Assembly: GCF_047663525.1 (NCBI RefSeq)
Contig: NC_092612.1
Span: forward strand, 5,985,501 to 6,049,500
DNA from: Anas platyrhynchos
Lineage: Eukaryota; Chordata; Aves; Anseriformes; Anatidae
Direction: 5' to 3'
Length of the DNA: 64,000 bases
The notes beneath the pieces are model-generated. The model was given only the letters and a program-made list of their open reading frames with translations, was not told the DNA's origin and searched no databases. Shown piece after piece: positions 10,999 through 62,636 of this stretch; position 1 is the stretch's first letter, and each line of letters opens with the position of its first letter. Position numbers and translations under genes: made by a program.

Positions 10999-11109
10999 CT
11001 GAGGAAAAAGCAAGCCAATGCAATCCCCCAAGCATCCCCCGCTGCCAGCTTTGCCATGGCTCCTGGGTGTGGGGCGCCCAGCGGCCGGCTGGGCCAGCCC
11101 CAAACTCAC

Positions 11110-26794: not shown

Positions 26795-26797
26795 AAT

Positions 26798-36002: not shown

Positions 36003-36119
36003 CTGACTACCAGTGTCTATCTGCCTTAGAGACCAGTAGATAAATTGAATCACAGACATATGTAGTTTAGGATCCACAAATGGCATCCACTGGAGCTGTC
36101 CAGTGACCATAGGCAAAAG
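36003..36119 (-). CDS. CCDC138: CCDC138 exon (LLPMVTGQLQWMPFVDPKLH)
   Basis: Acceptor TGTATTTTTACAG, donor AGTCAG/GTAAAT, 117 nt, phase 0 to 0, encoding 39 residues and ending IYWSLRQIDTGSQ. It is too short for an ordinary ORF scan. Confidence 0.94.
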
Positions 36120-36915: not shown

Positions 36916-37122
36916 CTTCATACAATTTTCTAGAGTGTAGTTTTCTTTAGCACACTGAGCTTTCTCACTGCCCTCTCTCTCTTCTTGTATTTCTATTTTG
37001 CTAAGGTGTTGGTCTGAGATCCAGTCCATAAGAATAGTTAAGGGGTCGTAAACTTTTGAAATCCGTAGTAACTGTAACACATCCACAACATCAGTTATTT
37101 CAGTTTTCAAGTCTATGATTTT
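36916..37122 (-). CDS. CCDC138: CCDC138 exon (VYDPLTILMDWISDQHLSK)
   Basis: Donor ATGAAG/GTAAAG. The acceptor is ambiguous: TTGTGGTTTAG gives a start at 37122 (207 nt), while GATGTGTTACAG gives 37071 (156 nt). Both keep phase 0. The conserved block is VYDPLTILMDWISDQHLSK, and the exon ends ENCMK. Confidence 0.9.
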
Positions 37123-38241
37123 CTAAACCACAATACCAATAGACTAAAATATACGAGTACATTAGTAATACGCACATGCTTTATTTTGTGCTTAAACAAA
37201 TGTTTATGAAAGCCTTGGGAAGAGATTTTCACATACAAAATCACTCTATTTTATAATTCTAACTAAATGGATCATAGGAGAAAGAAAATATTTAATGATC
37301 TGTGCATGATCCTCATTTTAATACATTTAATACACTCCTTTGCTTTATTTCATACAATCTACTTAGGCTAAATTTTAACTGTGTAACTAGCATTGTTGGA
37401 AGAATAAAGATTTCGTGAAATTGTCATTCTGTCCCTCTGCTACAACTGTACAGAAAAGCTCTGTGAAAGGTATCCAGACGTTCCTGAAGACAAACTACAC
37501 GAACATCTCTCTAAAACCTTCACAAGTTTTCTTGTATCTACCTTCAGACAACTGTTCTTCTCTTCACTCAGAATTCTAACTACTGATACTGCTCATATAT
37601 CACTTGCGACTGTGAGAAAAGAATATGGGGCAAACTATAACCACCATTTAAATATAAGTAGCATACTCTATGGATACAACAAGCATCCTGATCATCATGT
37701 AAGTCCTCTATGAATACTTCAGTTTGCACAAAAGAGAAAGAGAAAGAAAGATTTTACTGAGACTAGGAAGCAGATGATTTTAATCATACTCAAGAGCATC
37801 AGAACTGCAATTCACCGAAGGAGCAACGGTCAAAAGAGTTTAGGCAGCAATTTGCTTGTCAGCACTTAGGTCAGATTTAAGTCAAGTGAGAAGAAAACTT
37901 TAACGTTGTATTCTTGTGAACCACTGTCTCAGCGTGCCTTTAAGAACAGAGAAAATACTCCTTTAATTAACACTTTCAAAAATAACTAACTCTAAAGTCT
38001 TTAATACTGCAAAAGCTCTGAGAGACTAAATTTCATGTACTAGAAAACGAAGCAGAAAGTATTTACAACCATTCACACAATTCTTGTCTTAAAGAAACAA
38101 AATCAGCAATTTTGCAAACAACTTGTTCAAACATTTAAAATTGTTGACTGTAACTTGCAAAGCTACTTATAAACTTGACTGTACTGCTTGACTACTTGAC
38201 TGTAACTCGTAAAGCTAGTAACAGGAAATAATTAATCTTGC

Positions 38242-38424
38242 CTGGGTTTTTAGCAATTCGTTATTTTCCCTCAGAGAGTTAAGCGATGACCTCAGTTCGT
38301 TATTTTCATCAGTCATTTTTCTCAAGGTTTCTCTCAGTTGGCTCATTTTTGTCTCATGCTGCTTATTTTCATCAGTCATTTTTCTCAAGGTTTCTCTCAG
38401 TTGGCTCATTTTTGTCTCATGCTG
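38242..38424 (-). CDS. CCDC138: CCDC138 coiled-coil exon, array copy 1 (two repeats)
   Basis: 183 nt, phase 0/0, acceptor ATTTCTCTAG and GC donor CCCAG/GCAAGA. It encodes two QHETKMSQLRETLRKMTDEN units, then NELRSSLNSLRENNELLKTQ. Confidence 0.9.
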
Positions 38425-39941
38425 CTAGAGAAATATCAAATTTTAAAACGTGATTAACAAGAGAGTCTTTTTAGAAATAATTCTCAACTAAGTTCCATTT
38501 CAGTGTTAAAAAACAGGACAAACTTTCAAAGATCAAATTTGTAATTCTTCATGGTCCAATCTGCACATACCACCAGTAGTGAAGAAAGCAACATCCACAC
38601 CACATATTAAGAAGAAATATAAAGAAAATGGGAGCCATGGTGTACAGCCTATGGATCTTTTTTTTTTTTTCCAGAAAATACCTAGATCTTCTCATTGATC
38701 CTCTTGTACATTCCTCAGTTAAGTCAGGTGTGGGAAAGAATTGTGAATGAAAACAAATGTCAAAGCTTTTGTTTACACTTAGCTCTTTTTTTTTTTTTAG
38801 CATCCATTTTAACCACAAATATGCCCAATTCTCCCTTTTTTGAATCTTTCAAATATTCTAACTATTCACTGCTGATAGTTAAGACGCTTTAGTTCACCTG
38901 TACTTAAACACCTGTCCTGCAATGTCCAGCAATGTATCCAATACGTGCTACATTTCATTGAATTGGAAAAAAATAATTGTGAAACTCAAGATAGTAATCT
39001 TTTAATATTTGTTATTATTATTAGTCCACAATATAATTTAATACCAGTACATACCATTGAAATATAAGCAAAAACGGACAAAAGAAACTGCAACAAAGGA
39101 AAATTGAAGCGACAATTACTTGTAACAGTCAAAAACCTGCGTGCCTTGAAAAAGAACCAAAGGAACGTGTCTTTTTTCCCCTTCACTGGAAATTTGTAAT
39201 ATAATTAAATATTTTCCAGCAGATTCTGAAAAAAAAAGCCAACACTGAGGCTTTGAAGCTGAGCATAAAACAAATGTTTTCAGAAAATAACACTGTTACT
39301 GAGCATGATCTGTGAGAAAACAATATGGGGCAAACTATAACCGCCATTTAAATATAAGTAGCATACTCTATGGATACAACAAGCATCCTGATCATCATGT
39401 AAGTCCTCTATGAATACTTCAGTTTGCACAAAAGAGAAAGAGAAAGAAGGATTTTACTGAGACTAGGAAGCAGATGATTTTAATCATACTCAAGAGCATC
39501 AGAACTGCAATTCACTGAAGGAGCAATGGTCAAAAGAGTTTAGGCAGCAATTTGCTTGTCAGCATTTAGGTCAGATTTAAGTCAAGTGAGAAGAAAACTT
39601 TAACTTTGTATTCTTGTGAACCACTGTCTCAGCGTGCCTTTAAGAACAGAGAAAATACTCCTTTAATTAACACTTTCAAAAATAACTAACTCTAAAGTCT
39701 TTAATACTGCAAAAGCTCTGAGAGACTAAATTTCATGTACTAGAAAACGAAGCAGAAAGTATTTACAACCATTCACACAATTCTTGTCTTAAGGAAACAA
39801 AATCAGCAATTTTGCAAACAACTTGTTCAAACATTTAAAATTGTTGACTGTAACTTGCAAAGCTACTTATAAACTTGACTGTACTGCTTGACTACTTGAC
39901 TGTAACTCGTAAAGCTAGTAACAGGAAATAATTAATCTTGC

Positions 39942-40061
39942 CTGGGTTTTTAGCAATTCGATATTTTCCCTCAGAGAGTTAAGCGATGACCTCAGTTCGT
40001 TAGTTTCATCAGTCATTTTTCTCAAGGTTTCTCTCAGTTGGCTCATTTTTGTCTTATGCTG
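39942..40061 (-). CDS. CCDC138: CCDC138 coiled-coil exon, array copy 2 (one repeat)
   Basis: 120 nt, same splice signals. Variants: QHKTKMSQL, DETNELRSS and NIELLKTQ. Confidence 0.88.
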
Positions 40062-41576
40062 CTAGAGAAATATCAAATTTTAAAACGTGATTAACAAGAG
40101 AGTCTTTTTAGAAATAATTCTCAACTAAGTTCCATTTCAGTGTTAAAAAATAGGACAAACTTTCAAAGATCAAATTTGTAATTCTTTATGGTCCAATCTG
40201 CACATACCACCAGTAGTGAAGAAAGCAACATCCACACCACATATTAAGAAGAAATATAAAGAAAATGGGAGCCATGGTGTACAGCCTATCGATCTTTTTT
40301 TTTTTTCCAGAAAATACCTAGATCTTCTCATTGATCCTCTTGTACATTCCTCAGTTAAGTCAGGTGTGGGAAAGAATTGTGAATGAAAACAAATGTCAAA
40401 GCTTTTGTTTACACTTAGCTCTTTTTTTTTTTTTAGCATCCATTTTAACCACAAATATGCCCAATTCTCCCTTTTTTGAATCTTTCAAATATTCTAACTA
40501 TTCACTGCTGATAGTTAAGACGCTTTAGTTCACCTGTACTTAAACACCTGTCCTGCAATGTCCAGCAATGTATCCAATACGTGCTACATTTCATTGAATT
40601 GGAAAAAAATAATTGTGAAACTCAAGATAGTAATCTTTTAATATTTGTTGTTATTATTAGTCCATAATATAATTTAATACCAGTACATACCATTAAAATA
40701 TAAGCAAAAACAGACAAAAGAAACTGCAACAAAGGAAAATTGAAGCGACAATTACTTGTAACAGTCAAAAACCTGCGTGCCTTGAAAAAGAACCAAAGGA
40801 ATGTGTCTTTTTTCCCCTTCACTGGAAATTTGTAATATAATTAAATATTTTCCAGCAGATTCTGAAAAAAAAAACAACACTGAGGCTTTGAAGCTGAGCA
40901 TAAAACAAATGTTTTCAGAAAATAACACTGTTACTGAGCATGACCTGTGAGAAAACAATATGGGGCAAACTATAACCGCCATTTAAATATAAGTAGCATA
41001 CTCTATGGATACAACAAGCATCCTGATCATCATGTAAGTCCTCTATGAATACTTCAGTTTGCACAAAAGAGAAAGAGAAAGAAGGATTTTACTGAGACTA
41101 GGAAGCAGATGATTTTAATCATACTCAAGAGCATCAGAACTGCAATTCACTGAAGGAGCAACGGTCAAAAGAGTTTAGGCAGCAATTTGCTTGTCAGCAT
41201 TTAGGTCAGATTTAAGTCAAGTGAGAAGAAAACTTTAACTTTGTATTCTTGTGAACCACTGTCTCAGCGTGCCTTTAAGAACAGAGAAAATACTCCTTTA
41301 ATTAACACTTTCAAAAATAACTAACTCTAAAGTCTTTAATACTGCAAAAGCTCTGAGAGACTAAATTTCATGTACTAGAAAACGAAGCAGAAAGTATTTA
41401 CAACCATTCACACAATTCTTGTCTTAAGGAAACAAAATCAGCAATTTTGCAAACAACTTGTTCAAACATTTAAAATTGTTGACTGTAACTTGCAAAGCTA
41501 CTTATAAACTTGACTGTACTGCTTGACTACTTGACTGTAACTCGTAAAGCTAGTAACAGGAAATAATTAATCTTGC

Positions 41577-41759
41577 CTGGGTTTTTAGCAATTCGATATT
41601 TTCCCTCAGAGAGTTAAGCGATGACCTCAGTTCGTTATTTTCATCAGTCATTTTTCTCAAGGTTTCTCTCAGTTGGCTCATTTTTGTCTCATGCTGCTTA
41701 TTTTCATCAGTCATTTTTCTCAAGGTTTCTCTCAGTTGGCTCATTTTTGTCTCATGCTG
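41577..41759 (-). CDS. CCDC138: CCDC138 coiled-coil exon, array copy 3 (two repeats)
   Basis: 183 nt, open, with the same acceptor and GC donor. It shares the NIELLKTQ variant with copy 2. Confidence 0.9.
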
Positions 41760-43190
41760 CTAGAGAAATATCAAATTTTAAAACGTGATTAACAAGAGAG
41801 TCTTTTTAGAAATAATTCTCAACTAAGTTCCATTTCAGTGTTAAAAAATAGGACAAACTTTCAAAGATCAAATTTGTAATTCTTCATGGTCCAATCTGCA
41901 CATACCACCAGTAGTGAAGAAAGCAACATCCACACCACATATTAAGAAGAAATATAAAGAAAATGGGAGCCATGGTGTACAGCCTATCGATCTTTTTTTT
42001 TTTTCCAGAAAATACCTAGATCTTCTCATTGATCCTCTTGTACATTCCTCAGTTAAGTCAGTTGTGGGAAAGAATTGTGAATGAAAACAAATGTCAAAGC
42101 TTTTGTTTACACTTAGCTCTTTTTTTTTTTTTTAGCATCCATTTTAACCACAAATATGCCCAATTCTCCCTTTTTTGAATCTTTCAAATATTCTAACTAT
42201 TCACTGCTGATAGTTAAGACGCTTTAGTTCACCTGTACTTAAACACCTGTCCTGCAATGTCCAGGAATGTATCCAATACGTGCTACATTTCATTGAATTG
42301 GAAAAAAATAATTGTGAAACTCAAGATAGTAATCTTTTAATATTTGTTGTTATTATTAGTCCATAATATAATTTAATACCAGTACATACCATTAAAATAT
42401 AAGCAAAAACAGACAAAAGAAACTGCAACAAAGGAAAATTGAAGCGACAATTACTTGTAACAGTCAAAAACCTGCGTGCCTTGAAAAAGAACCAAAGGAA
42501 TGTGTCTTTTTTCCCCTTCACTGGAAATTTGTAATATAATTAAATATTTTCCAGCAGATTCTGAAAAAAAAACCAACACTGAGGCTTTGAAGCTGAGCAT
42601 AAAACAAATGTTTTCAGAAAATAACACTGTTACTGAGCATGACCTGTGAGAAAACAATATGGGGCAAACTATAACCGCCATTTAAATATAAGTAGCATAC
42701 TCTATGGATACAACAAGCATCCTGATCATCATGTAAGTCCTCTATGAATACTTCAGTTTGCACAAAAGAGAAAGAGAAAGAAGGATTTTACTGAGACTAG
42801 GAAGCAGATGATTTTAATCATACTCAAGAGCATCAGAACTGCAATTCACTGAAGGAGCAACGGTCAAAAGAGTTTAGGCAGCAATTTGCTTGTCAGCATT
42901 TAGGTCAGATTTAAGTCAAGTGAGAAGAAAACTTTAACTTTGTATTCTTGTGAACCACTGTCTCAGCGTGCCTTTAAGAACAGAGAAAATACTCCTTTAA
43001 TTAACACTTTCAAAAATAACTAACTCTAAAGTCTTTAATACTGCAAAAGCTCTGAGAGACTAAATTTCATGTACTAGAAAACGAAGCAGAAAGTATTTAC
43101 AACCATTCACACAATTCTTGTCTTAAAGAAACAAAATCAGCAATTTTGCAAACAATTTGTTCAAACATTTAAAATTGTTGACTGTAACTT

Positions 43191-43742
43191 TGATTAAGGA
43201 GGTATTGGGGAGGTATTGGGGAGGCAAGGACAATCCCCAGACATGGACAGTATATCTCAAAACAAGACACTGGAACTCATGATAAGGAAGCGGCAGATGG
43301 ACAGAGAAACAAATGTAAGGACTATAAATCTCAAAATTGGACATTGGAATTCATTATAAAGATACAACAAACGGAAGAATTGGCAACAACCAGCTCTCGC
43401 AATTAAGAAACGTGCCAATTCAGCAGATTCCTGACCAAAGGTGAAAAGTACACTGTGAGGAAGACTCGGGGTCTTCCTCCCAAAGACCCCTGCCCACAAT
43501 TCTTGGGAGGCTCTACGCAGGCGCAAGGTGCCAAAAGGCTAATTAGCATGAGAAGCGAGGGAAGGCGGGGATAGGTAATGCATATGTATAGGCGCTTGTA
43601 GAATATTGATAGATTGATTGTATAAATTCAAGACTGCTTTCCGCTTTGGGTATGCACGATAGGTGGAGAGATCCCCCGTGCATCCAGCGCTGCAATAAAG
43701 AATATACCACTTAAAGGAATTTCAGCTTCGATCTTTGAATCA
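43191..43742 (+). repeat. ERV2 5' LTR (552 bp)
   Basis: TG...CA ends, TATA box TTGTATAAATTC near 43618-43629, AATAAA at 43694-43699. It is 21 bp shorter than the 3' LTR because it lacks a duplicated CCCAAAGACCCCTGCCCA-type segment. Confidence 0.95.
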
Positions 43743-43745
43743 ATC

Positions 43746-43763
43746 TGGCACCCCAGATGGGAC
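43746..43763 (+). promoter_or_regulatory. ERV2 primer binding site, tRNA-Arg(CCU) type
   Basis: TGGCACCCCAGATGGGAC begins three bases after the LTR. Its complement, ending GGGGTG plus CCA, matches the 3' end of vertebrate tRNA-Arg(CCU) as I know it. Use of tRNA-Arg is a trait of the HERV-R/ERV3 group. Confidence 0.8.
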
Positions 43764-44507
43764 TACCTCTCTGCCGGTCCGCAGGACCCGCTGGGGACAG
43801 GACTCCCTAGGGTACCCCCGGGATTTCCTGGAGGGACTCCTCGACTCACCGGATCACTGCGGAGGCAGACAAGGACCCCATCATTGTAAGTGAGTATATT
43901 CTTTATTCTGGTTTGGTTTTCTGGTAGACCGGTCATCTGGGACTGTCCAGTAAGTCGGAAGGTGACTTCTGCAGGACAGTATTTGGTATATACTTTGTGG
44001 TTAGTACCACAAGTATATCTGGGGACCTGAGGTCCATCTGTATCTGGAACTGTCTGTAAGTCAGAAGGTGATCTTCTGCGAGGCAGTGTTTGGTATATAC
44101 TTTGTGGTAAGCACCATAAGTATATTTGGGGACCTTAAGGAAAGAGCTCGCTTTAAGGTCCATCTGGAATTGTGTTGTTTATTTCGGTTTTCTGACTCAT
44201 GGAGTACGGTATTTAACTCTGGTTATTGTTACTGTGATTTTGGCTATTTTTCTGGTGGTAATAGTAGGTTCGTGGCATTGTTATAAGAAAGATATCGTTA
44301 TGGTGTTACACAGTTCGGTTTTCTGACTTATCGCATGTGGAATTTGACTCTGACTATTGTTATTGTGATTTTAGCAATATTGCTGGTAATAGTAGCTTTG
44401 TGACATCGCTACTGAAAGATATTGCATGCCTGTAATTTTGTGAGTGATACGTTTTTGTGATACACTTTTGTAAGTAACACGTGTATTCTGAAAGTGTAAA
44501 CTGGAAA

Positions 44508-44750
44508 ATGGGGGGGCGAGTAAGCAGTGAAATTCCTAAGAAAAGTGCGTTAGGATGTGTTTTGAGTCACTGGAAGGATATTGGAGGATCTGCCGGTGGA
44601 AGTGTGAACAGGAAAACATTGATAAAATATTGTAATCAATGGTGGCCGCTTTATAAGCTGGAATGTGGAGAAAAGTGGCCCCTAAATGGAACTTTAAACT
44701 CTAATGTTTTGCTACAGTTAATGTTGGTTTTGAGAAGGAGAATAGGATGA
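44508..44750 (+). pseudogene. gag: ERV2 gag, matrix part
   Basis: The frame starts with MG (myristoylation-type) and contains KYCNQWWPLYKLECGEKWPL followed by NGTLNSNVLLQLM, a typical gammaretroviral matrix pattern. It ends at a stop after about 80 residues. The proline-rich and early capsid regions that should follow (44751-45190) are decayed. Confidence 0.85.
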
Positions 44751-45189
44751 AATGTTGTATACTGATGTTGTTTCAGCATCTTGGTGGGAAAAGGTACGGA
44801 ATTAAGTTGGCCCCTGACTGAGCCTTTGATGTTGGCATTAGAGAAGTACAGGCTGGAGAAAGATAAAGGAAGTGTTAAAAGGGTTGTTGAAAGTGTTAAA
44901 GGTGTTTGAAGTTGAATGAGCAGGGAAAGAGGATGTAGGAATGTTAATAGTTCTGTCTCTGCTCTAGGCAGAGATCTTAAAATCATGGGTGTTAGCCCTT
45001 TGGGGCAAATGGATCATGATGGGTCCGAGAGAGAGTTGTTATGGAAACAGAAAAACAGTTAACTCTTAAAACAACCTGAGTTCATGTGCGAGCTCAGATT
45101 ACCGATGGGACCGCTCAGGGAACTGTGGACAACTGCATTCCCCTGACCGACCCCACTGAGACCCTAATCATCCCTAAAATTATGAACGG

Positions 45190-45696
45190 CTAAGTAAATA
45201 CTAAAATCTGGATGAATTGGGAATTGAGAATATGCTTCCAACAAGGTCTAAAAGAAACCCCATCCGAATTTCTTGAAAGGGTGAGGGCAGCAATGCAGAA
45301 GTTTACCACTATAGACCCTTCCTCTGAGGGGGGGTAGACTTCAATTAGTATCTCTATTTTTGGGTCAATCGGCGGAAGATATTAGACGAAAACTTCAGAA
45401 AATGAAAGAACCAGACGTAAGGGATTTGGAAAGATTAGTAGAAGAAGCCTGGAGAGTGTTTAGAAATCGTGAGGGGAATGAAAGGCAAAAGTTAGGTGAG
45501 ACGATTGCAGCAGCCACTGTGGCAGCCCTGCGAAAGCAGGAAGAATCTTTTCGAGGCAGGAGAAGGGGGGGGGAAGGTAATTCGACTCCCCTTGCGGGCT
45601 GAACAGTGTGCCTACTGTAAAGAGATAGGACACTGGAAAAGGGAATGCCCGAAGCGGCAAGAGGAAAATAAGCTATTAATGGCTACAAAACAATGA
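45190..45696 (+). pseudogene. gag: ERV2 gag, capsid C-terminal part and nucleocapsid
   Basis: Three frames cover it. 45230-45335 has GLKETPSEFLERVRAAMQKF, the capsid major homology region. 45360-45602 has SAEDIRRKLQKMKEP. 45496-45696 has the zinc knuckle [14 protein letters not shown] (C-X2-C-X4-H-X4-C at 45607-45648). The breaks coincide with G runs (about 45329-45335 and 45567-45575). The last frame ends at TGA 45694-45696, in frame with pol. Confidence 0.85.
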
Positions 45697-48555
45697 AGGA
45701 GACCGGGGGACTCTACCCTAGCAGATCCACTGGTTAAAATTAAGCTAGGGAAATTGGGTCGGGAAGTAGAATTTTTAGTAGATACAGGAGCTACATATTC
45801 AGTGTTAAATCAGAAGTTGATGCCAGAAGATAAAGATTTTGTGACAGTGGTGGGGGCAATGGGTAGACACGAAAAAGCTTTCTTTTTAAAGCCATTAGAA
45901 TATGAATTGGGGAAGCAAATGGGAATACATAGGTTTTTGTATTTGCCGGGATCTCCTAGATCTTTATTGGGACGGGATTTATTAGAGCAATTAGAAGCTG
46001 AAATTGTTTTTGAAAAGGGAAGGGTAGAGTTAAGAGTAAAAGAAGACCGACTTATAAGTGCACTAAGTTTGGTATTGATCCAAACTGATTCTTTTAATGA
46101 AACCCTTCCGGAAATCCAGGATCAGGTTTATCCAGGGGTGTGGGAATCTGATGTCCCTGGGAAAGCAAAGAATGCTGCACCAATAATGGTAAAATTAAAA
46201 CCAGGAGAGAAGCCAGTAAAGGTTAAGCAGTACCCCCTTAGAATAGAAGATAGAAGAGGAATAAAAGATACAATAGATAAGTTTTTGAAATATGGGTTAC
46301 TGGTCGAGTGTGAATCAGAATATAATACTCCCATCTTACCAATTAAGAAACCGGATGGGAAGAGTTATAGGTTAGTACAGGACTTGAGAGCAATAAACAG
46401 GATCACTGAAGACATACACCCTGTGGTAGCAAACCCTTATACGCTATTGACCAAGTTAAGGGACAAGTTGGTCTGGTTTACCGTACTGGATTTAAAGGAT
46501 GCCTTCTTTTGTTTAACCTTGGCCCCAGAAAGCCGAAACCTCTTTGCCTTTGAATGGGAAAATCCTGACTCAGGACGAAAAGTCCAGTTGACATGGACAG
46601 TGCTTCCTCAGGGGTTTAAAAATAGCCCTACGATTTTTGGTAATCAACTTGCAAAGGAACTTGAATCCTGGGAAGCCCCCAATTCTGCAGGGGTCCTGCT
46701 GCAATATGTTGATGATCTCTTGATTGCTACCGAAGACAGGGGAAGCTGCATACAGTGGACGGTGAGCCTCCTTAATTTCCTAGGAATGAATGGATACCGG
46801 GTTTCACAACAGAAGGCACAATTGGTTCAAACCCACGTGACATACCTAGGATTTGAGATCTCAGGAGGACAACGTGAATTGGGGACGGAACGCAAGGAAG
46901 CAATCTGTCGTACCCCAGAACCACAGACTGTTAAAGAATTACGAACTTTCCTAGGAATGACAGGTTGGTGCAGATTATGGATCAACAATTATGGATTAAT
47001 TGTAAGGCCTTTGTATGATTTAATTAAAGATAACTGCATAAGACTAATATGGACAGGAGAAGCCCGAGCAGCCTTTAAGAAGTTTAAGATGGAGTTGATG
47101 CGAGCCCCAGCTCTTGGTTTACCAGATTTGTCTAAACCCTTTTGGTTATACTCCTATGAAAGACAGGGTATGGCCTTAGGGGTACTAGCACAAAAGTTGG
47201 GACCTTACAAAAGGGCAGTGGCTTATTTCTCTAAACAATTGGATGAAGTAAGTAAAGGATGGCCAGGCTGCCTGCGAGCAGTGGCAGCCGTAATTATGAA
47301 TATACAAGAAGCCCGGAAATTTACAATGGGGCAGAAGATAACAGTGTTTGTCTCACACACTGTGTCAGCAGTTTTAGAACAAAAGGGGGCTCATTGGTTA
47401 TCTCCTCAGAGATTTTTGAAATATCAAGCAATATTGGTAGAACAGGACGATGTGGAAATTGTGATAACTAATATTGTGAATCCAGCCTCTTTTCTTAGTG
47501 ATGCTCCGGCGGAACCTGTGATTCACGATTGTTTAGAAACTATGGAGACTGTGTATTCCAGCCAACCAGACCTTAAGGAGGAGCCCATGGAAGATGCAGA
47601 AGAAACTTGGTTCACGGATGGGAGCAGTTTTGTTACACAAGGACAACGTAAAGCTGGATATGCTATAACAACTACTCAGCAGGTAATTGAGTCTAAGCCT
47701 TTACCCCCTGGAACATCAGCTCAAAAGGCGGAGATAGTTGCTCTCACGAGAGCATTGGAACTGGCAGCTGGAAAAAGAAGGGTAAATATTTGGACAGATT
47801 CTAAATATGCATTCGGCATGGTACATGCTCATGGAGCGATTTGGAAAGAACGTGGATTACTGACTGCTCAGGGAAAACAGATAAAACATGCTGAAGAAAT
47901 TTTAAAATTGTTAGAGGCTGTAAAACAACCAGAAAAAGTGGCTATTATGCATTGCCGAGGGCATCAAAGAGGATCCACTGACTTCGAGATTGGGAACAGA
48001 TTGGCTGATAAAGAGGCAAGAAGGGAGCCGGAAAGAGGTCAAGTGGAAGTGCTTGCTTTAATACCAGACAGTAAAATTCAGACATTAGAGAAAGGACAGG
48101 CTCCTAAATATTCAAAAGAAGATTTAAAGTTGATCGAGGATCTAAAAGGGAAGCTGAATGTTGATGGGTGGGCTCATTTGAAGGACAACAGGGTTGTTAT
48201 GCCCTCTAATTTGGTGTGGCCTATGGTTTTGGGGGAACACAACAAAACCCACTGGGGAGCCGATGCCCTGTATAAACTATTAAATCGAGTATTGGTAGCA
48301 AGAAATCTGTATACCACAATAAGGCAGGTAACCCAACAATGTGACACCTGTATGCGTCATAATCCCAATACAGGAAATAGGGTGACATTTGGTGTCATTG
48401 ATAAAGGGAATTATTCGGGGCAACTGTGGCAAATTGATTTTTCAGAACTCCCTAGAAAAGGGGCGTATTGTTATTTACTGGTTCTGACTGACATGATTTC
48501 AGGAAGGCCTGAAGCCTTTCCCTGTCAAACAAACAAAGCAAGAAGAAGTGGTTAA
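45697..48555 (+). pseudogene. pol: ERV2 pol: protease, reverse transcriptase, RNase H, partial integrase
   Basis: The frame continues directly from the gag stop codon, with its first Met at 45754. Counted from that Met, protease has LVDTGATYSVLN (Asp at residue 10). RT has the YVDD box (residues 318-321). RNase H begins WFTDGSS (Asp 622) and continues QKAEIVALTRAL and WTDSKYAF. Integrase has the HHCC zinc region ending CDTCMRHNP and the first catalytic Asp in WQIDFSE (residue 895). The frame then shifts near 48,530 and stops at 48555. The remaining two catalytic residues lie beyond the shift in sequence with several stops. All motifs before the break look undamaged. Confidence 0.95.
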
Positions 48556-49258
48556 AGTCTTGTTAAATGAAATAATACCATGCTTTGGGATTCTAGTAGC
48601 AATGTCTTCTGATAGAGTTTCACATTTTTGTGTGCAAGTGGTACAACAGATAAATAAGATTCTAAAGATATTCTAAAGACAACTGCATACTCTTTATAGA
48701 CCGCAGGCAAGTGGACAGGTAGAAAAAATGAAACATTTAATTAAACAACAAATAGCTAAAATCGGACAAGAATCTAATTTGTCATGACCTCAATCCCTCC
48801 CTTTAGCATTACTTAGAATTTGAGTTAAACCTAGAATATAAGGGAATTTGAGTCCCTTTGAAATTTTATATGGAAGGCCATATCATTTTATATTTAGTGG
48901 AGAGGATCTAATGCAGCTAGGATTAGAATATTTATATGCATATATAACTGAACTTCAGAAATAATTAAATAAAGTACATAAATTTGTTCTCAGGACCTGG
49001 GCTAGATGGTTGGATCAACCAATCCACCCTTTTAAGCTCAGGGATTATATATATAAAGACTTTTTCAGGACAACCCCTAGAGGAAAAACGGAAGGAAAGT
49101 GGACGGGACCATACCAGGTATTACTGACAACACGCACCGCCATTAAGATTAAGGAGCAAGCAGCTTGGATCCACGATTCAAGGGTGAAGAAGGCCCTGGC
49201 AAGGATATGGACCACCACTCCAATTGGACCAACAAAATTATGGTTTTCCAGATCCTAA
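48556..49258 (+). pseudogene. pol: ERV2 integrase C-terminal part, broken
   Basis: Fragments of the integrase core lie in other frames with stops. An open piece at 49010-49258 carries the C-terminal phrase GPYQVLLTTRTAIKI and ends at 49256-49258 inside the env signal-peptide region, the usual pol/env overlap. Confidence 0.8.
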
Positions 49259-50394
49259 TGATTGCAGGGGTGTGGTTCTCAGATTCGGGGTGGGCAGTTT
49301 GGGATGAGAACTTACACCTGTCCCTGATACAAACAATTTCTCAAGTAATTAATAAGACGAACTGTTGGGTATGCACCCATCTGCCACAGCATGGGAATAA
49401 GGGTGTATCGTTAATCAGGATTCCCTTGCCTGCAAACTTACCTTGGACTAATTTGTGGGAAAACACATCTTGGGGTCAAAAATATGAAGAAGTTTTGGAA
49501 CTAGAAGTTAGTAGCTTCGTGCCATTGGAATCTTACTATGTATGTGTACAAAGGTGTAACCCGCCTAAGGGTATGGGAAAACAGGATTGTATAAATACGG
49601 GTACTACTTATGTGGGAAATCAGACATCTTGTAATCAAACAATTGATATTAGTACAACTAGCAGTTGGGCAAATTCAACCAGCTGGCCAGTTCCAGAAGG
49701 AAAAGGGTGGTATTGGCTATGCAATGATACAGCTCGTAAGGTCTTGCCCGAGAACTGGAAGGGAACTTGCACTCTTGGAGCAGTAGTCCCCAGTATGACA
49801 GTACATGATGTAGTGCCTCGAGGTTACTTGAGAAATCATATCTGGAGAATTAGACGAAAAATTAACAATCCATTGATAGAGAGACACACCGCTTTTCATA
49901 GTTTTGTTCGATGGTTTATCCCATGGTTAGGAGTGAATGAATTGGAAAAGGCAATAGTTAATATTTCTGCAATTATAGAGAAGTTAGAAAACAAAACTCT
50001 GGATGCTATAAAGGCTCAACAAGAAGAGATATCTAGTTTATCACAGGTAGTATTACAAAATCGGATGGCCCTAGACTTGTTACTGGCCGCTCAAGGGGGA
50101 GTCTGTACAGTAATAAATACAAGTTGTTGTATGTATGTAGATCAGAGTGGAAGGATCTCTACCGACCTGGAAGAAATATGGAAGCAGACAAGGGTCCTAC
50201 ATGAGATCAGTAAAGATGATCTTTCATGGAGTTTTAGTGAAATATGGAATAAGTTAACCTCCTGGTTGCCCAACTTCCAATGGTTGGAACAAGTGTTCAT
50301 TGCTCTTATCACATTAGTAGTGTTAGGAATATTTGTGTGCATGTTGTTTAGATGCCTGCTTTATTGTGTTACTGTAAATAATGAAAGTATCTGA
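49240..50394 (+). CDS. env: ERV2 env: open but short envelope glycoprotein frame
   Basis: The likely start is the Met at 49240, because a hydrophobic signal peptide follows ([17 protein letters not shown]); the frame is open from 49165. Counted from 49240 the product is 384 residues. CWVC at 42-45 is the surface-subunit CXXC motif. [15 protein letters not shown] lies mid-protein. [15 protein letters not shown] is followed by a CX6CC motif (Cys 289, 296, 297), typical of gamma-type transmembrane subunits. A membrane anchor lies at about 347-375, followed by a short tail. There is no receptor-binding-domain-sized region before CWVC, and no clear polybasic cleavage site followed by a hydrophobic fusion peptide, only RIRRK followed by polar sequence. 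The frame has no stop or frameshift. Confidence 0.9.
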
Positions 50395-50431
50395 TGCAAA
50401 AGAATTTGCATGGGAAAAGAAAAGGGGGGAT

Positions 50432-51004
50432 TGATTAAGGAGGTATTGGGGAGGCATTGGGGAGGCAAGGACAATCCCCAGACATGGACAGTATATCTCA
50501 AAACAAGACACTGGAACTCATGATAAGGAAGCGGCAGACGGACAGAGAAACAAATGTAAGGACTATAAATCTCAAAATTGGACATTGGAATTCATTATAA
50601 AGATACAACAAACGGAAGAATTGGCAACAACCAGCTCTCGCAATTAAGAAACGTGCCAATTCAGCAGATTCCTGACCAAAGGTGAAAAGTACACTGTGAG
50701 GAAGACTCGGGGTCTTCCTCCCAAAGAGCCCTGCCCACGTCCCAAAGACCCCTGCCCACAATTCTTGGGAGGCTCTACGCAGGCGCAAGGTGCCAAAAGG
50801 CTAATTAGCATGAGAAGCGAGGGAAGGCGGGGATAGGTAATGCATATGTATAGGCGCTTGTAGAATATTGATAGATTGATTGTATAAATTCAAGACTGCT
50901 TTCCGCTTTGGGTATGCACGATAGGTGGAGAGATCCCCCGTGCATCCAGCGCTGCAATAAAGAATATACCACTTAAAGGAATTTCAGCTTCGATCTTTGA
51001 ATCA
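50432..51004 (+). repeat. ERV2 3' LTR (573 bp)
   Basis: Matches the 5' LTR except for scattered substitutions and a 21-bp duplication near 50736. It has the same length as the solo LTR at 24723. Confidence 0.95.
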
Positions 51005-51093
51005 ACTTGCAAAGCTACTTATAAACTTGACTGTACTGCTTGACTACTTGACTGTAACTCGTAAAGCTAGTAACAGGAAATAATTAATCTTGC

Positions 51094-51276
51094 CTGGGTT
51101 TTTAGCAATTCGTTATTTTCCCTCAGAGAGTTAAGCGATGACCTCAGTTCGTTATTTTCATCAGTCATTTTTCTCAAGGTTTCTCTCAGTTGGCTCATTT
51201 TTGTCTCATGCTGCTTATTTTCATCAGTCATTTTTCTCAAGGTTTCTCTCAGTTGGCTCATTTTTGTCTCATGCTG
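51094..51276 (-). CDS. CCDC138: CCDC138 coiled-coil exon, array copy 4 (two repeats)
   Basis: 183 nt, open. It lies just right of ERV2, which split this unit's intron and left the exon intact. Confidence 0.9.
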
Positions 51277-52788
51277 CTAGAGAAATATCAAATTTTAAAA
51301 CGTGATTAACAAGAGAGGCTTTTTAGAAATAATTCTCAACTAAGTTCCATTTCAGTGTTAAAAAACAGGACAAACTTTCAAAGATCAAATTTGTAATTCT
51401 TCATGGTCCAATCTGCACATACCACCAGTAGTGAAGAAAGCAACATCCACACCACATATTAAGAAGAAATATAAAGAAAATGGGAGCCATGGTGTACAGC
51501 CTATGGATCTTTTTTTTTTTTTTCCAGAAAATACCTAGATCTTCTCATTGATCCTCTTGTACATTCCTCAGTTAAGTCAGGTGTGGGAAAGAATTGTGAA
51601 TGAAAACAAATGTCAAAGCTTTTGTTTACACTTAGCTCTTTTTTCTTTTAGCATCCATTTTAACCACAAATATGCCCAATTCTCCCTTTTTTGAATCTTT
51701 CAAATATTCTAACTATTCACTGCTGATAGTTAAGACGCTTTAGTTCACCTGTACTTAAACACCTGTCCTGCAATGTCCAGCAATGTATCCAATACGTGCT
51801 ATATTTCATCGAATTGGAAAAAAATTGTGAAACTCAAGATAGTAATCTTTTAATATTTGTTGTTATTATTAGTCCACAATATAATTTAATACCAGTACAT
51901 ACCATTAAAATATAAGCAAAAACAGACAAAAGAAACTGCAACAAAGGAAAATTGAAGCGACAATTACTTGTAACAGTCAAAAACCTGCGTGCCTTGAAAA
52001 AGAAACCAAGGAATGTGTCTTTTTTCCCCTTCACTGGAAATTTGAAATATAATTAAATATTTTCCAGCAGATTCTGAAAAAAAAAACAACACTGAGGCTT
52101 TGAAGCTGAGTATAAAAAAAATGTTTTCAGAAAATAACACTGTTACTGAGCATAACCTGTGAGAAAACAATATGGGGCAAACTATAACCGCCATTTAGAT
52201 ATAAGTAGCATACTCTATGGATACAACAAGCATCCTGATCATCATGTAAGTCCTCTATGAATACTTCAGTTTGCACAAAAGAGAAAGAGAAAGAAAGATT
52301 TTACTGAGACTAGGAAGCAGATGATTTTAATCATACTCAAGAGCATCAGAACTGCAATTCACTGAAGGAGCAACGGTCAAAAGAGTTTAGGCAGCAATTT
52401 GCTTGTCAGCATTTAGGTCAGATTTAAGTCAAGTGAGAAGAAAACTTTAACTTTGTATTCTTGTGAACCACTGTCTCAGCGTGCCTTTAAGAACAGAGAA
52501 AATACTCCTTTAATTAACACTTTCAAAAATAACTAACTCTAAAGTCTTTAATACTGCAAAAGCTCTGAGAGACTAAATTTCATGTACTAGAAAACGAAGC
52601 AGAAAGTATTTACAACCATTCACACAATTCTTGTCTTAAAGAAACAAAATCAGCAATTTTGCAAACAACTTGTTCAAACATTTAAAATTGTTGACTGTAA
52701 CTTGCAAAGCTACTTATAAACTTGACTGTACTGCTTGACTACTTGACTGTAACTCGTAAAGCTAGTAACAGGAAATAATTAATCTTGC

Positions 52789-52908
52789 CTGGGTTTTTAG
52801 CAATTCGTTATTTTCCCTCAGAGAGTTAAGCGATGACCTCAGTTCATTATTTTCATCAGTCATTTTTCTAAAGGGTTGTCTCAGTTGGCTCCTTTTTGTC
52901 CCATGCTG
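52789..52908 (-). CDS. CCDC138: CCDC138 coiled-coil exon, array copy 5 (one repeat, most diverged)
   Basis: 120 nt, open and phase 0/0, but with several replacements (QHGTKRSQLRQPFRKM). A Pro now interrupts the helix. It is the most diverged of the nine. Confidence 0.85.
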
Positions 52909-54422
52909 CTAGAGAAATATCAAATTTTAAAACGTGATTAACAAGAGAGTCTTTTTAGAAATAATTCCCAACTAAGTTCCATTTCAGTGTTAAAAAACAG
53001 GACAAACTTTCAAAGATCAAATTTGTAATTCTTCATGGTCCAATCTGCACATACCACCAGTAGTGAAGAAAGCAACATCCACACCACATATTAAGAAGAA
53101 ATAAAGAAAATGGGAGCCATGGTGTACAGCCTATGGATCTTTTTTTTTTTTTTCCAGAAAATACCTAGATCTTCTCATTGATCCTCTTGTACATTCCTCA
53201 GTTAAGTCAGGTGTGGGAAAGAATTGTGAATGAAAACAAATGTCAAAGCTTTTGTTTACACTTAGCTCTTTTTTTTTTTTAGCATCCATTTTAACCACAA
53301 ATATGCCCAATTCTCCCTTTTTTGAATCTTTCAAATATTCTAACTATTCACTGCTGATAGTTAAGATGCTTTAGTTCACCTGTACTTAAACACCTGTCCT
53401 GCAGTGTCCAGCAATGTATCCAATACGTGCTACATTTCATTGAATTGGAAAAAAATAATTGTGAAACTCAAGATAGTAATCTTTTAATATTTGTTGTTAT
53501 TATTAGTCCACAATATAATTTAATACCAGTACATACCATTAAAATATAAGCAAAAACAGACAAAAGAAACTGCAACAAAGGAAAATTGAAGCGACAATTA
53601 CTTGTAACAGTCAAAAACCTGCGTGCCTTGAAAAAGAAACCAAGGAATATGTCTTTTTTCCCCTTCACTGGAAATTTGAAATATAATTAAATATTTTCCA
53701 GCAGATTCTGAAAAAAAAAACAACACTGAGGCTTTGAAGCTGAGTATAAAAAAAATGTTTTCAGAAAATAACACTGTTACTGAGCATAACCTGTGAGAAA
53801 ACAATATGGGGCAAACTATAACCGCCATTTAGATATAAGTAGCATACTCTATGGATACAACAAGCATCCTGATCATCATGTAAGTCCTCTATGAATACTT
53901 CAGTTTGCACAAAAGAGAAAGAGAAAGAAAGATTTTACTGAGACTAGGAAGCAGATGATTTTAATCATACTCAAGAGCATCAGAACTGCAATTCACTGAA
54001 GGAGCAACGGTCAAAAGAGTTTAGGCAGCAATTTGCTTGTCAGCACTTAGGTCAGATTTAAGTCAAGTGAGAAGAAAACTTTAACTTTGTATTCTTGTGA
54101 ACCACTGTCTCAGCGTGCCTTTAAGAACAGAGAAAATACTCCTTTAATTAACACTTTCAAAAATAACTAACTCGAAAGTCTTTAATACTGCAAAAGCTCT
54201 GAGAGACTAAATTTCATGTACTAGAAAACGAAGCAGAAAGTATTTACAACCATTCACACAATTCTTGTCTTAAAGAAACAAAATCAGCAATTTTGCAAAC
54301 AACTTGTTCAAACATTTAAAATTGTTGACTGTAACTTGCAAAGCTACTTATAAACTTGACTGTACTGCTTGACTACTTGACTGTAACTCGTAAAGCTAGT
54401 AACAGGAAATAATTAATCTTGC

Positions 54423-54605
54423 CTGGGTTTTTAGCAATTCGTTATTTTCCCTCAGAGAGTTAAGCGATGACCTCAGTTCGTTATTTTCATCAGTCATTTT
54501 TCTCAAGGTTTCTCTCAGTTGGCTCATTTTTGTCTCATGCTGCTTATTTTCATCAGTCATTTTTCTCAAGGTTTCTCTCAGTTGGCTCATTTTTGTCTCA
54601 TGCTG
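54423..54605 (-). CDS. CCDC138: CCDC138 coiled-coil exon, array copy 6 (two repeats)
   Basis: 183 nt, encoded residues as in copy 1. GC donor and CTCTAG acceptor retained. Confidence 0.9.
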
Positions 54606-56124
54606 CTAGAGAAATATCAAATTTTAAAACGTGATTAACAAGAGAGTCTTTTTAGAAATAATTCTCAACTAAGTTCCATTTCAGTGTTAAAAAACAGGAC
54701 AAACTTTCAAAGATCAAATTTGTAATTCTTCATGGTCCAATCTGCACATACCACCAGTAGTGAAGAAAGCAACATCCACACCACATATTAAGAAGAAATA
54801 TAAAGAAAATGGGAGCCATGGTGTACAGCCTATGGATCTTTTTTTTTTTTTTTTTCCAGAAAATACCTAGATCTTCTCATTGATCCTCTTGTACATTCCT
54901 CAGTTAAGTCAGGTGTGGGAAAGAATTGTGAATGAAAACAAATGTCAAAGCTTTTGTTTACACTTAGCTCTTTTTTTTTTTTAGCATCCATTTTAACCAC
55001 AAATATGCCCAATTCTCCCTTTTTTGAATCTTTCAAATATTCTAACTATTCACTGCTGATAGTTAAGACGCTTTAGTTCACCTGTACTTAAACACCTGTC
55101 CTGCAATGTCCAGCAATGTATCCAATACGTGCTACATTTCATCGAATTGGAAAAAATTAATTGTGAAACTCAAGATAGTAATCTTTTAATATTTGTTGTT
55201 ATTATTAGTCCATAATATAATTTAATACCAGTACATACCATTAAAATATAAGCAAAAACAGACAAAAGAAACTGCAACAAAGGAAAATTGAAGCGACAAT
55301 TACTTGTAACAGTCAAAAACCTGCGTGCCTTGAAAAAGAAACCAAGGAATGTGTCTTTTTTCCCCTTCACTGGAAATTTGAAATATAATTAAATATTTTC
55401 CAGCAGATTCTGAAAAAAAAAACAACACTGAGGCTTTGAAGCTGAGTGTAAAACAAATGTTTTCAGAAAATAACACTGTTACTGAGCATGACCTGTGAGA
55501 AAACAATATGGGGCAAACTATAACCGCCATTTAGATATAAGTAGCATACTCTATGGATACAACAAGCATCCTGATCATCATGTAAGTCCTCTATGAATAC
55601 TTCAGTTTGCACAAAAGAGAAAGAGAAAGAAAGATTTTACTGAGACTAGGAAGCAGATGATTTTAATCATACTCAAGAGCATCAGAACTGCAATTCACTG
55701 AAGGAGCAACGGTCAAAAGAGTTTAGGCAGCAATTTGCTTGTCAGCATTTAGGTCAGATTTAAGTCAAGTGAGAAGAAAACTTTAACTTTGTATTCTTGT
55801 GAACCACTGTCTCAGCGTGCCTTTAAGAACAGAGAAAATACTCCTTTAATTAACACTTTCAAAAATAACTAACTCTGAAGTCTTTAATACTGCAAAAGCT
55901 CTGAGAGACTAAATTTCATGTACTAGAAAACGAAGCAGAAAGTATTTACAACCATTCACACAATTCTTGTCTTAAAGAAACAAAATCAGCAATTTTGCAA
56001 ACAACTTGTTCAAACATTTAAAATTGTTGACTGTAACTTGCAAAGCTACTTATAAACTTGACTGTACTGCTTGACTACTTGACTGTAACTCGTAAAGCTA
56101 GTAACAGGAAATAATTAATCTTGC

Positions 56125-56307
56125 CTGGGTTTTTAGCAATTCGTTATTTTCCCTCAGAGAGTTAAGCGATGACCTCAGTTCGTTATTTTCATCAGTCATT
56201 TTTCTCAAGGTTTCTCTCAGTTGGCTCATTTTTGTCTCATGCTGCTTATTTTCATCAGTCATTTTTCTCAAGGTTTCTCTCAGTTGGCTCATTTTTGTCT
56301 CATGCTG
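56125..56307 (-). CDS. CCDC138: CCDC138 coiled-coil exon, array copy 7 (two repeats)
   Basis: 183 nt, encoded residues as in copy 1. Units 6, 7 and 8 follow at exactly 1702-bp spacing. Confidence 0.9.
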
Positions 56308-57826
56308 CTAGAGAAATATCAAATTTTAAAACGTGATTAACAAGAGAGTCTTTTTAGAAATAATTCTCAACTAAGTTCCATTTCAGTGTTAAAAAACAGG
56401 ACAAACTTTCAAAGATCAAATTTGTAATTCTTCATGGTCCAATCTGCACATACCACCAGTAGTGAAGAAAGCAACATCCACACCACATATTAAGAAGAAA
56501 TATAAAGAAAATGGGAGCCATGGTGTACAGCCTATGGATCTTTTTTTTTTTTTTTTCCAGAAAATACCTAGATCTTCTCATTGATCCTCTTGTACATTCC
56601 TCAGTTAAGTCAGGTGTGGGAAAGAATTGTGAATGAAAACAAATGTCAAAGCTTTTGTTTACACTTAGCTCTTTTTTTTTTTTTAGCATCCATTTTAACC
56701 ACAAATATGCCCAATTCTCCCTTTTTTGAATCTTTCAAATATTCTAACTATTCACTGCTGATAGTTAAGACGCTTTAGTTCACCTGTACTTAAACACCTG
56801 TCCTGCAATGTCCAGCAATGTATCCAATACGTGCTACATTTCATCGAATTGGAAAAAATTAATTGTGAAACTCAAGATAGTAATCTTTTAATATTTGTTG
56901 TTATTATTAGTCCATAATATAATTTAATACCAGTACATACCATTAAAATATAAGCAAAAACAGACAAAAGAAACTGCAACAAAGGAAAATTGAAGCGACA
57001 ATTACTTGTAACAGTCAAAAACCTGCGTGCCTTGAAAAAGAAACCAAGGAATGTGTCTTTTTTCCCCTTCACTGGAAATTTGAAATATAATTAAATATTT
57101 TCCAGCAGATTCTGAAAAAAAAAACAACACTGAGGCTTTGAAGCTGAGTGTAAAACAAATGTTTTCAGAAAATAACACTGTTACTGAGCATGACCTGTGA
57201 GAAAACAATATGGGGCAAACTATAACCGCCATTTAAATATAAGTAGCATACTCTATGGATACAACAAGCATCCTGATCATCATGTAAGTCCTCTATGAAT
57301 ACTTCAGTTTGCACAAAAGAGAAAGAGAAAGAAAGATTTTACTGAGACTAGGAAGCAGATGATTTTAATCATACTCAAGAGCATCAGAACTGCAATTCAC
57401 TGAAGGAGCAACGGTCAAAAGAGTTTAGGCAGCAATTTGCTTGTCAGCATTTAGGTCAGATTTAAGTCAAGTGAGAAGAAAACTTTAACTTTGTATTCTT
57501 GTGAACCACTGTCTCAGCGTGCCTTTAAGAACAGAGAAAATACTCCTTTAATTAACACTTTCAAAAATAACTAACTCTGAAGTCTTTAATACTGCAAAAG
57601 CTCTGAGAGACTAAATTTCATGTACTAGAAAACGAAGCAGAAAGTATTTACAACCATTCACACAATTCTTGTCTTAAAGAAACAAAATCAGCAATTTTGC
57701 AAACAACTTGTTCAAACATTTAAAATTGTTGACTGTAACTTGCAAAGCTACTTATAAACTTGACTGTACTGCTTGACTACTTGACTGTAACTCGTAAAGC
57801 TAGTAACAGGAAATAATTAATCTTGC

Positions 57827-58009
57827 CTGGGTTTTTAGCAATTCGTTATTTTCCCTCAGAGAGTTAAGCGATGACCTCAGTTCGTTATTTTCATCAGTCA
57901 TTTTTCTCAAGGTTTCTCTCAGTTGGCTCATTTTTGTCTCATGCTGCTTATTTTCATCAGTCATTTTTCTCAAGGTTTCTCTCAGTTGGCTCATTTTTGT
58001 CTCATGCTG
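57827..58009 (-). CDS. CCDC138: CCDC138 coiled-coil exon, array copy 8 (two repeats)
   Basis: 183 nt, encoded residues as in copy 1. Confidence 0.9.
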
Positions 58010-59530
58010 CTAGAGAAATATCAAATTTTAAAACGTGATTAACAAGAGAGGCTTTTTAGAAATAATTCTCAACTAAGTTCCATTTCAGTGTTAAAAAACA
58101 GGACAAACTTTCAAAGATCAAATTTGTAATTCTTCATGGTCCAATCTGCACATACCACCAGTAGTGAAGAAAGCAACATCCACACCACATATTAAGAAGA
58201 AATATAAAGAAAATGGGAGCCATGGTGTACAGTCTATGGATCTTTTTTTTTTTTTTTTTTTTCCAGAAAATACCTAGATCTTCTCATTGATCCTCTTGTA
58301 CATTCCTCAGTTAAGTCAGGTGTGGGAAAGAATTGTGAATGAAAACAAATGTCAAAGCTTTTGTTTACACTTAGCTCTTTTTTTTTTTTAGCATCCATTT
58401 TAACCACAAATATGCCCAATTCTCCCTTTTTTGAATCTTTCAAATATTCTAACTATTCACTGCTGATAGTTAAGACGCTTTAGTTCACCTGTACTTAAGC
58501 ACCTGTCCTGCAATGTCCAGCAATGTATCCAATACGTGCTACATTTCATCGAATTGGAAAAAAGTAATTGTGAAACTCAAGATAGTAATCTTTTAATATT
58601 TGTTGTTATTATTAGTCCACAATATAATTTAATACCAGTACATACCATTAAAATATAAGCAAAAACAGACAAAAGAAACTGCAACAAAGGAAAATTGAAG
58701 CGACAATTACTTGTAACAGTCAAAAACCTGCGTGCCTTGAAAAAGAAACCAAGGAATGTGTCTTTTTTCCCCTTCACTGGAAATTTGAAATATAATTAAA
58801 TATTTTCCAGCAGATTCTGAAAAAAAAAACAACACTGAGGCTTTGAAGCTGAGTATAAAACAATGTTTTCAGAAAATAACACTGTTACTGAGCATGACCT
58901 GTGAGAAAACAATATGGGGCAAACTATAACCGCCATTTAAATATAAGTAGCATACTCTATGGATACAACAAGCATCCTGATCATCATGTAAGTCCTCTAT
59001 GAATACTTCAGTTTGCACAAAAGAGAAAGAGAAAGAAAGATTTTACTGAGACTAGGAAGCAGATGATTTTAATCATACTCAAGAGCATCAGAACTGCAAT
59101 TCACTGAAGGAGCAACGGTCAAAAGAGTTTAGGCAGCAATTTGCTTGTCAGCATTTAGGTCAGATTTAAGTCAAGTGAGAAGAAAACTTTAACGTTGTAT
59201 TCTTGTGAACCACTGTCTCAGCGTGCCTTTAAGAACAGAGAAAATACTCCTTTAATTAACACTTTCAAAAATAACTAACTCTAAAGTCTTTAATACTGCA
59301 AAAGCTCTGAGAGACTAAATTTCATGTACTAGAAAACGAAGCAGAAAGTATTTACAACCATTCACACAATTCTTGTCTTAAAGAAACAAAATCAGCAATT
59401 TTGCAAACAACTTGTTCAAACATTTAAAATTGTTGACTGTAACTTGCAAAGCTACTTATAAACTTGACTGTACTGCTTGACTACTTGACTGTAACTCGTA
59501 AAGCTAGTAACAGGAAATAATTAATCTTGC

Positions 59531-59650
59531 CTGGGTTTTTAGCAATTCGTTATTTTCCCTCAGAGAGTTAAGCGATGACCTCAGTTCGTTATTTTCATCA
59601 GTCATTTTTCTCAAGGTTTCTCTCAGTTGGCTCATTTTTGTCTCATGCTG
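59531..59650 (-). CDS. CCDC138: CCDC138 coiled-coil exon, array copy 9 (one repeat)
   Basis: 120 nt, open. It is the first array exon in transcription order. With a single 21-residue unit it resembles the human exon length and may be closest to the ancestral form. Confidence 0.9.
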
Positions 59651-60520
59651 CTAGAGAAATATCAAATTTTAAAACGTGATTAACAAGAGAGTCTTTTTAG
59701 AAATAATTCTCAACTAAGTTCCATTTCAGTGTTAAAAAACAGGACAAACTTTCAAAGATCAAATTTGTAATTCTTCATGGTCCAATCTGCACATACCACC
59801 AGTAGTGAAGAAAGCAACATCCACACCACATATTAAGAAGAAATATAAAGAAAATGGGAGCCATGGTGTACAGCCTATGGATCTTTTTTTTTTTTTCCAG
59901 AAAATACCTAGATCTTCTCATTGATCCTCTTGTACATTCCTCAGTTAAGTCAGGTGTGGGAAAGAATTGTGAATGAAAACAAATGTCAAAGCTTTTGTTT
60001 ACACTTAGCTCTTTTTTTTTTTTTTAGCATCCATTTTAACCACAAATATGCCCAATTCTCCCTTTTTTGAATCTTTCAAATATTCTAACTATTCACTGCT
60101 GATAGTTAAGACGCTTTAGTTCACCTGTACTTAAACACCTGTCCTGCAATGTCCAGGAATGTATCCAATACGTGCTACATTTCATCGAATTGGAAAAAAA
60201 TAATTGTGAAACTCAAGATAGTAATCTTTTAATATTTGTTGTTATTATTAGTCCACAATATAATTTAATACCAGTACATACCATTAAAATATAAGCAAAA
60301 ACAGACAAAAGAAACTGCAACAAAGGAAAATTGAAGCGACAATTACTTGTAACAGTCAAAAACCTGCGTGCCTTGAAAAAGAAACCAAGGAATGTGTCTT
60401 TTTTCCCCTTCACTGGAAATTTGAAATATAATTAAATATTTTCCAGCAGATTCTGAAAAAAAAACCAACACTGAGGCTTTGAAGCCGAGTATAAAACAAA
60501 TGTTTTCAGAAAGTAACATT

Positions 60521-61499: not shown

Positions 61500-61628
61500 G
61501 TCTTCATCAGCATCTTTTATTGCAGCGAAAGCTGCTTCACATCTGTGAAGCAATTCTTCTCGCTCAACTAGAGCACGTTCTCGTCTCTCAAGTTCCAGTG
61601 CATATTTCTCCTGTGCTGAACGCTCCCT
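61500..61628 (-). CDS. CCDC138: CCDC138 exon (EKYALELERRERALVEREEL)
   Basis: Acceptor TTTCCTTGGTATAG, 129 nt, phase 0. It encodes RERSAQEKYALELERRERAL and continues to AAIKDADED. The donor GAC/GTTTAG is weak and therefore uncertain. This is a heptad-bearing part of the family coiled coil. Confidence 0.88.
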
Positions 61629-62562: not shown

Positions 62563-62636
62563 CTGGAGATTCTGACGGGCGACTTGCAGTTCGCTATTAC
62601 TCTGACTTTTACCTAAATGGGATGGTAAGGTGTTAT
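62563..62636 (-). CDS. CCDC138: CCDC138 exon (NTLPSHLGKSQSNSELQVAR)
   Basis: Acceptor CTTTTTCTCCACAG, donor CTCCAG/GTAGGA, 74 nt. With one base from the preceding exon it starts DNTLPSHL and ends VARQNLQ. The phase fits both neighbours. It is too short for an ORF scan. Confidence 0.85.

Follow-up and report, generated by a model that had tools for sequence, protein, structure and literature searches.

The window, a stretch of 64,000 nucleotides from Anas platyrhynchos (contig NC_092612.1 of assembly GCF_047663525.1, positions 5,985,501 to 6,049,500), carries part of the gene CCDC138 on its minus strand. Within this gene, one coiled-coil exon is present in nine tandem copies. Self-BLAST of the window places the array at 37610 to 60518 and resolves it into about 8.9 units of 1.7 kb. 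An earlier sequence-only reading had described a ninefold CCDC138 exon array on units of this size, and its description is borne out, with edges that lie two bases from its figures. Once an inserted provirus is removed, the array measures 15,091 bases and the spacing from acceptor to acceptor is 1632 to 1702. Unique sequence flanks the array on both sides, and because both edges fall within the window, nine is the complete copy count for this assembly.

In each unit, the phase-0 coiled-coil exon is preceded by 868 nt of intron and followed by 632 nt of intron, with 19 nt of filler in addition. The downstream intron portion stops at a CACAG acceptor-like site in every unit, and the lower edge of the array is the G of such a site. 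The 19-nt stretch GTCATGCTCAGTAACAGTG is found, with at most one mismatch, at all eight inter-unit junctions and is absent from the rest of the window, including both array edges, when up to three substitutions are allowed.

The exon exists in two forms. Six copies are 183 nt long (61 codons) and three are 120 nt long (40 codons), for a total of 486 codons. None of the nine contains a stop, and all are phase 0 at both ends, so that any number of copies keeps the reading frame; on these points the earlier reading was correct. It was also right that the splice sites are common to all copies: the acceptor CTCTAG/CAG, which forms a TAGCAG (NAGNAG) pair, and the donor CAG/GCAAGA, which is a GC rather than a GT donor, are identical in 9/9. 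A perfect internal duplication of 63 nt (21 codons) distinguishes the 183-nt form from the 120-nt exon. The matching stretch of the human CCDC138 protein, a single copy of 40 residues, makes the shorter form the likely ancestor of the longer. Five of the six long copies are identical across 183 nt. Both forms have a hydrophobic periodicity of about 3.4 to 3.5 (shuffle P 0.002 and 0.006). Copy 5 was correctly singled out as the most diverged yet still open. It carries six private substitutions within 56 nt, comprising five replacements (one a proline) and one silent change. Of the ten private changes in its unit, six lie inside the 120-nt exon and the other four elsewhere (P 2.7e-5), a concentration for which a cluster of mutations or a conversion tract could account.

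Pairwise differences between the introns of the units range from 0.20 to 1.41% with a mean of 0.94%, and this low divergence indicates that the array is young. Introns differ little between the neighbouring units of copies 3 and 4 (0.20%) and of copies 7 and 8 (0.33%), which shows that exchange or duplication between neighbours continued recently. Since the units of copies 7 and 8 differ in exon length, the 63-nt repeat has been gained or lost since their split.

The exon copies drift without detectable selection, within the limited power of a test that has few changes to draw on. The earlier reading had itself named an exon divergence that keeps pace with that of introns as an outcome counting against it, and the mean pairwise difference is 1.74% in exons versus 0.94% in introns. 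In the nine-unit alignment, 9/183 exon columns and 42/1513 intron columns are variable (Fisher P 0.11), and without copy 5 these become 3/183 and 38/1513 (P 0.61). The nine exon changes comprise eight replacements and one silent change. The expected shares for changes placed at random in the 120-nt exon are 0.71 for replacements, 0.24 for silent changes, and 0.046 for stops (kappa 2), and the probability of at least eight replacements among nine is 0.29, an unremarkable result that fits an absence of constraint. With a stop share this small, nine changes produce no stop 65% of the time, so openness carries no weight at the age of this array. The earlier argument that stops would be expected to accumulate over time does not hold here, and missing stops are rejected as evidence of function. 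In an array so young, open and in-phase copies alone are no evidence of a giant protein.

A provirus antisense to CCDC138 splits the array. Gammaretrovirus-like proviruses are defined by paired long terminal repeats (LTRs), a 4-bp target duplication, and pol and TLV_coat-type env domains, all of which are present here. The LTRs lie at 43191-43742 and 50432-51004, and the target duplication ACTT lies at 43187-43190 and 51005-51008. The provirus occupies one unit only, and the matching sites in the other eight are unbroken. Between 45697 and 50394 on the plus strand, it retains a 952-codon frame (protease, reverse transcriptase, and RNase H) and a 413-codon envelope-domain frame. The LTR pair differs by 2/552 substitutions and one 21-bp indel. 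Open frames together with near-identical LTRs point to a very recent insertion, and the LTR divergence makes the provirus likely to be younger than the array units. A provirus older than the array was considered and rejected, as the 95.7% BLAST identity of its LTRs is mostly due to the single indel. The low intron and LTR divergences agree with the suggestion of a very young array in the earlier reading. Assuming about 2e-9 substitutions per site per year in birds, the units would be some 2 million years old and the provirus less than 1 million, both rough figures only.

A solitary LTR of the same family lies at 24723-25295 on the plus strand and differs from the 3′ LTR of the provirus at 4/573 bases. 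It is bounded by a GTTT target duplication and flanked by direct repeats of about 0.85 kb at 20841-21684 and 26796-27637, which are 92% identical by self-BLAST.

The identity of the gene is established by its C-terminal domain. When eight stretches, namely two from upstream of the array, an array exon, and the five C-terminal exons, are joined in gene order, they match CCDC138_C (PF21035) in Pfam with an E value of 9.9e-83; the score is 278.1 bits, where the gathering cut-off is 26.6. The match spans profile positions 1-251 of 291 and is confined to the five C-terminal stretches. The 5′ exons of CCDC138 lie outside the window. We take exon a to be part of the gene from its position and a by-eye match to the human protein, with no tool match. 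Coordinates are collected in the table.

Table. Features of the CCDC138 locus, in positions of the window
Feature	Position	Strand	Description	Basis
Exon a	62563..62636	-	likely CCDC138; phase-0 end; good donor CAG/GTAGGA (score 4.4)	position
Exon b	61470..61628	-	159 nt; phase 0 to 0; just upstream of array	tblastn to human protein
Array, right part	51005..60518	-	about 5.6 units	self-BLAST
Exon copy 1 (gene order)	59531..59650	-	40 codons	open, phase 0
Exon copy 2	57827..58009	-	61 codons	open, phase 0
Exon copy 3	56125..56307	-	61 codons	open, phase 0
Exon copy 4	54423..54605	-	61 codons	open, phase 0
Exon copy 5	52789..52908	-	40 codons; most diverged	open, phase 0
Exon copy 6	51094..51276	-	61 codons; provirus in the intron after it	open, phase 0
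Provirus	43191..51004	+	7.8 kb	RVT_1, RNase_H, RVP, and TLV_coat matches; LTRs
Array, left part	37610..43190	-	about 3.3 units	self-BLAST, junctions
Exon copy 7	41577..41759	-	61 codons	open, phase 0
Exon copy 8	39942..40061	-	40 codons	open, phase 0
Exon copy 9	38242..38424	-	61 codons	open, phase 0
Exon e	36916..37122	-	first intact exon found past array	Pfam, open frame
Exon C	36003..36119	-	C-terminal domain; intact	Pfam, open frame
Exon D	34876..35068	-	C-terminal domain; intact	Pfam, open frame
Exon E	32690..32872	-	C-terminal domain; intact	Pfam, open frame
Exon F	28735..28873	-	C-terminal domain; intact	Pfam, open frame

Exon b is 53% identical over 43 residues to human CCDC138 and contains an in-frame TAG at 61494-61496, nine codons (TAG counted) short of the point at which exon b would join the array exon in phase 0. 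A joined path that includes exon b meets a stop at codon 69. Donors were scored with an approximate frequency table, in which GC in place of GT is not penalised. The exon b donor, GTACAA, scores -3.6, versus 3.6 to 7.0 for six other CCDC138 donors and -0.5 for a seventh. The array exon donor is the highest of those scored at 7.0, its GC being unpenalised by the table, and exon F has either a weak donor (-0.5) or an in-frame stop right behind it.

A further coil exon would be expected to lie between the array and exon e, and none was found. Between 37640 and 37100, the donor score reaches 0 in 0/23 open phase-0-to-0 AG..GT candidates (best -1.9). Allowing GC donors raises this to 2/27 (best 0.9), and allowing any end phase raises it to 7/106, all scoring at most 0.9. 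Six GT or GC donor-like sites between 37700 and 37050 score above 0 (best 2.3), and none closes an open phase-0-to-0 GT exon. At 37.4-37.6 kb, a likeness seen by eye had suggested that the next coil exon survives as a frameshifted remnant; this candidate was rejected, as 29/486 background tiles, drawn from the whole window with the region of the candidate included, score as well. Profile positions 252-291 of PF21035 have no Pfam match in the three minus-strand frames of 25301-28786, and the last CCDC138 exon was not found there or further downstream, where the scan used only the human protein. With a TAG in exon b and the end of the C-terminal domain unmatched, CCDC138 is not a complete intact coding sequence here.

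The window holds several features apart from CCDC138 and the provirus. A second tandem duplication on the plus strand (316-1129 and 2770-6581) has a period of about 1.7 kb and is 98.6% identical over 2108 bases; it has no self-BLAST match to the CCDC138 array despite the nearly equal period. Within it, a stretch with many Arg, Ser, and Lys residues is open and looks coding, with open reading frames at 680-1843, 3798-4295, and 5512-6009. This stretch may resemble the C-terminal part of USP42, and Pfam and PDB scans of it returned nothing useful. On the minus strand, a GC-rich open frame of 782 codons at 9830-12178 contains a 72-bp tandem repeat at 10318-10531 and has no Pfam match. The peptide frame at 8057-8311 (minus strand) looks like the end of a CR1 LINE, which fits a bird genome. 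Neighbouring open reading frames in the window gave sub-threshold matches only in Pfam and PDB scans, and an Rfam scan of the window gave 0 matches.

The account that we favour, with moderate confidence, is a recent intragenic tandem duplication that drifts neutrally in a damaged copy of CCDC138 whose ordinary transcript is truncated. A 1.7-kb piece of the gene, comprising the exon and flanking intron, would have been duplicated in tandem and then expanded to nine copies. The common 19-nt junctions are what a single end-joining event and later unequal exchange would produce. Unequal exchange is the most likely route of expansion, a mechanism inferred from the array, whereas the anatomy itself is read directly. 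The 63-nt repeat within the exon varies in copy number as well, and the provirus would have inserted into one unit afterwards. Given the exon b stop, its poor donor, and the downstream coil exon that was not found, the usual a-b transcript probably ends at the stop in exon b, ahead of the array, and the gene here was probably damaged recently or is a damaged duplicate.

Several observations weigh against this account. Exon a and exons e, C, D, E, and F are open and have AG at their acceptors, and the C-terminal exons cover 251 of the 291 positions of PF21035; had the gene died long ago, some of these exons should be gone. The end of exon b is placed by the human protein and not by a bird ortholog, and its TAG may be a sequencing error. 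The near-identity of the long copies fits both youth and selection, and with so few changes weak purifying selection is compatible with it. With phase 0 at both ends of exon b as well as of the array exon, the frame survives when exon b is skipped; exon a, all nine copies, and exons e to F then form an open path of 789 codons with 0 stops. By the phases, this path would stay open with any number of copies.

In an unlikely alternative, CCDC138 is a live gene that skips exon b, has dropped the downstream coil exon, and encodes a functional, length-variable coiled coil in which one to nine copies of the array exon take the place of the lost coil between exon a and the C-terminal domain. The phases of all joins, the splice sites shared by every copy, the strong array donor, the periodicity of both exon forms, and the C-terminal domain, intact over 251 of 291 profile positions, are all in its favour, and KIV-2 of LPA shows intron-containing coding arrays to be workable (PMC11462820). 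However, the exons show no sign of constraint, copy 5 has its five private replacements including a proline, and splicing from exon a directly past exon b is an assumption. The giant or length-variable protein proposed by the earlier reading is unsupported rather than disproved, with eight replacements to one silent change in the exons and a stop and a poor donor in exon b.

Equally doubtful is a live gene in which the true exon b ends elsewhere than the human protein implies, with one or a few array exons spliced and the rest serving as a long intron. The tblastn match to that protein does stop right at the TAG. Yet the only GT sites scoring above 0 in 61625-61208, at 61306 (1.6) and 61297 (1.0), both lie past the stop, and the donor candidate immediately before it scores -8.5. 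We regard as more speculative still the idea of exon turnover in a living centrosome or cilium protein, in which two adjacent coil exons were lost and the gap was filled by multiplying a third, symmetrical one; if true, the CCDC138 coil would vary in length by 40 or 61 residues per unit among transcripts and individuals. An assembly artefact, whether a repeat collapsed or expanded in assembly or a wrong join of haplotypes, is improbable: units about 99% identical are difficult to assemble and the copy number could be wrong, but each unit has its own combination of length variants and of changes that are private or shared, only one unit carries the provirus and its target duplication, and both array ends meet unique sequence.

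The CCDC138 array can be set beside known systems. CCDC138 is described as a basal body and centriolar satellite protein, found at the basal bodies of multi-ciliated cells in model-vertebrate embryos (PMC5488662). No exon array is evident in titles and abstract openings of the papers searched that mention CCDC138, and those on tandem exon arrays in birds have nothing on this locus. The nearest parallel is human LPA KIV-2, with coding units of 5.6 kb that carry two exons each and number 1-40 per allele (PMC11462820). Both consist of highly similar, intron-containing tandem units of kilobase size within a gene, and the CCDC138 units also carry frame-preserving exons (9/9 phase 0 to 0). In contrast to KIV-2, the CCDC138 array repeats a single exon on units of 1.7 kb, and the exon ahead of it contains a stop.

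The locus resembles human CCDC138 in its C-terminal domain, which matches PF21035, and in an exon order that follows the human protein. It differs in that the 40-codon stretch, single in the human sequence, is ninefold here, that exon b is broken, and that the next coil exon and the last exon were not found where searched. If the splice path that skips exon b is used, the nine copies would form an array of coding exons within a ciliary gene, and no other such case is known to us. Nebulin and titin also repeat in-frame exons within one gene, and their repeats are old and selected, whereas the CCDC138 array is young and without sign of selection. It offers a clean, datable snapshot of a symmetrical exon multiplying before selection keeps or discards the copies.

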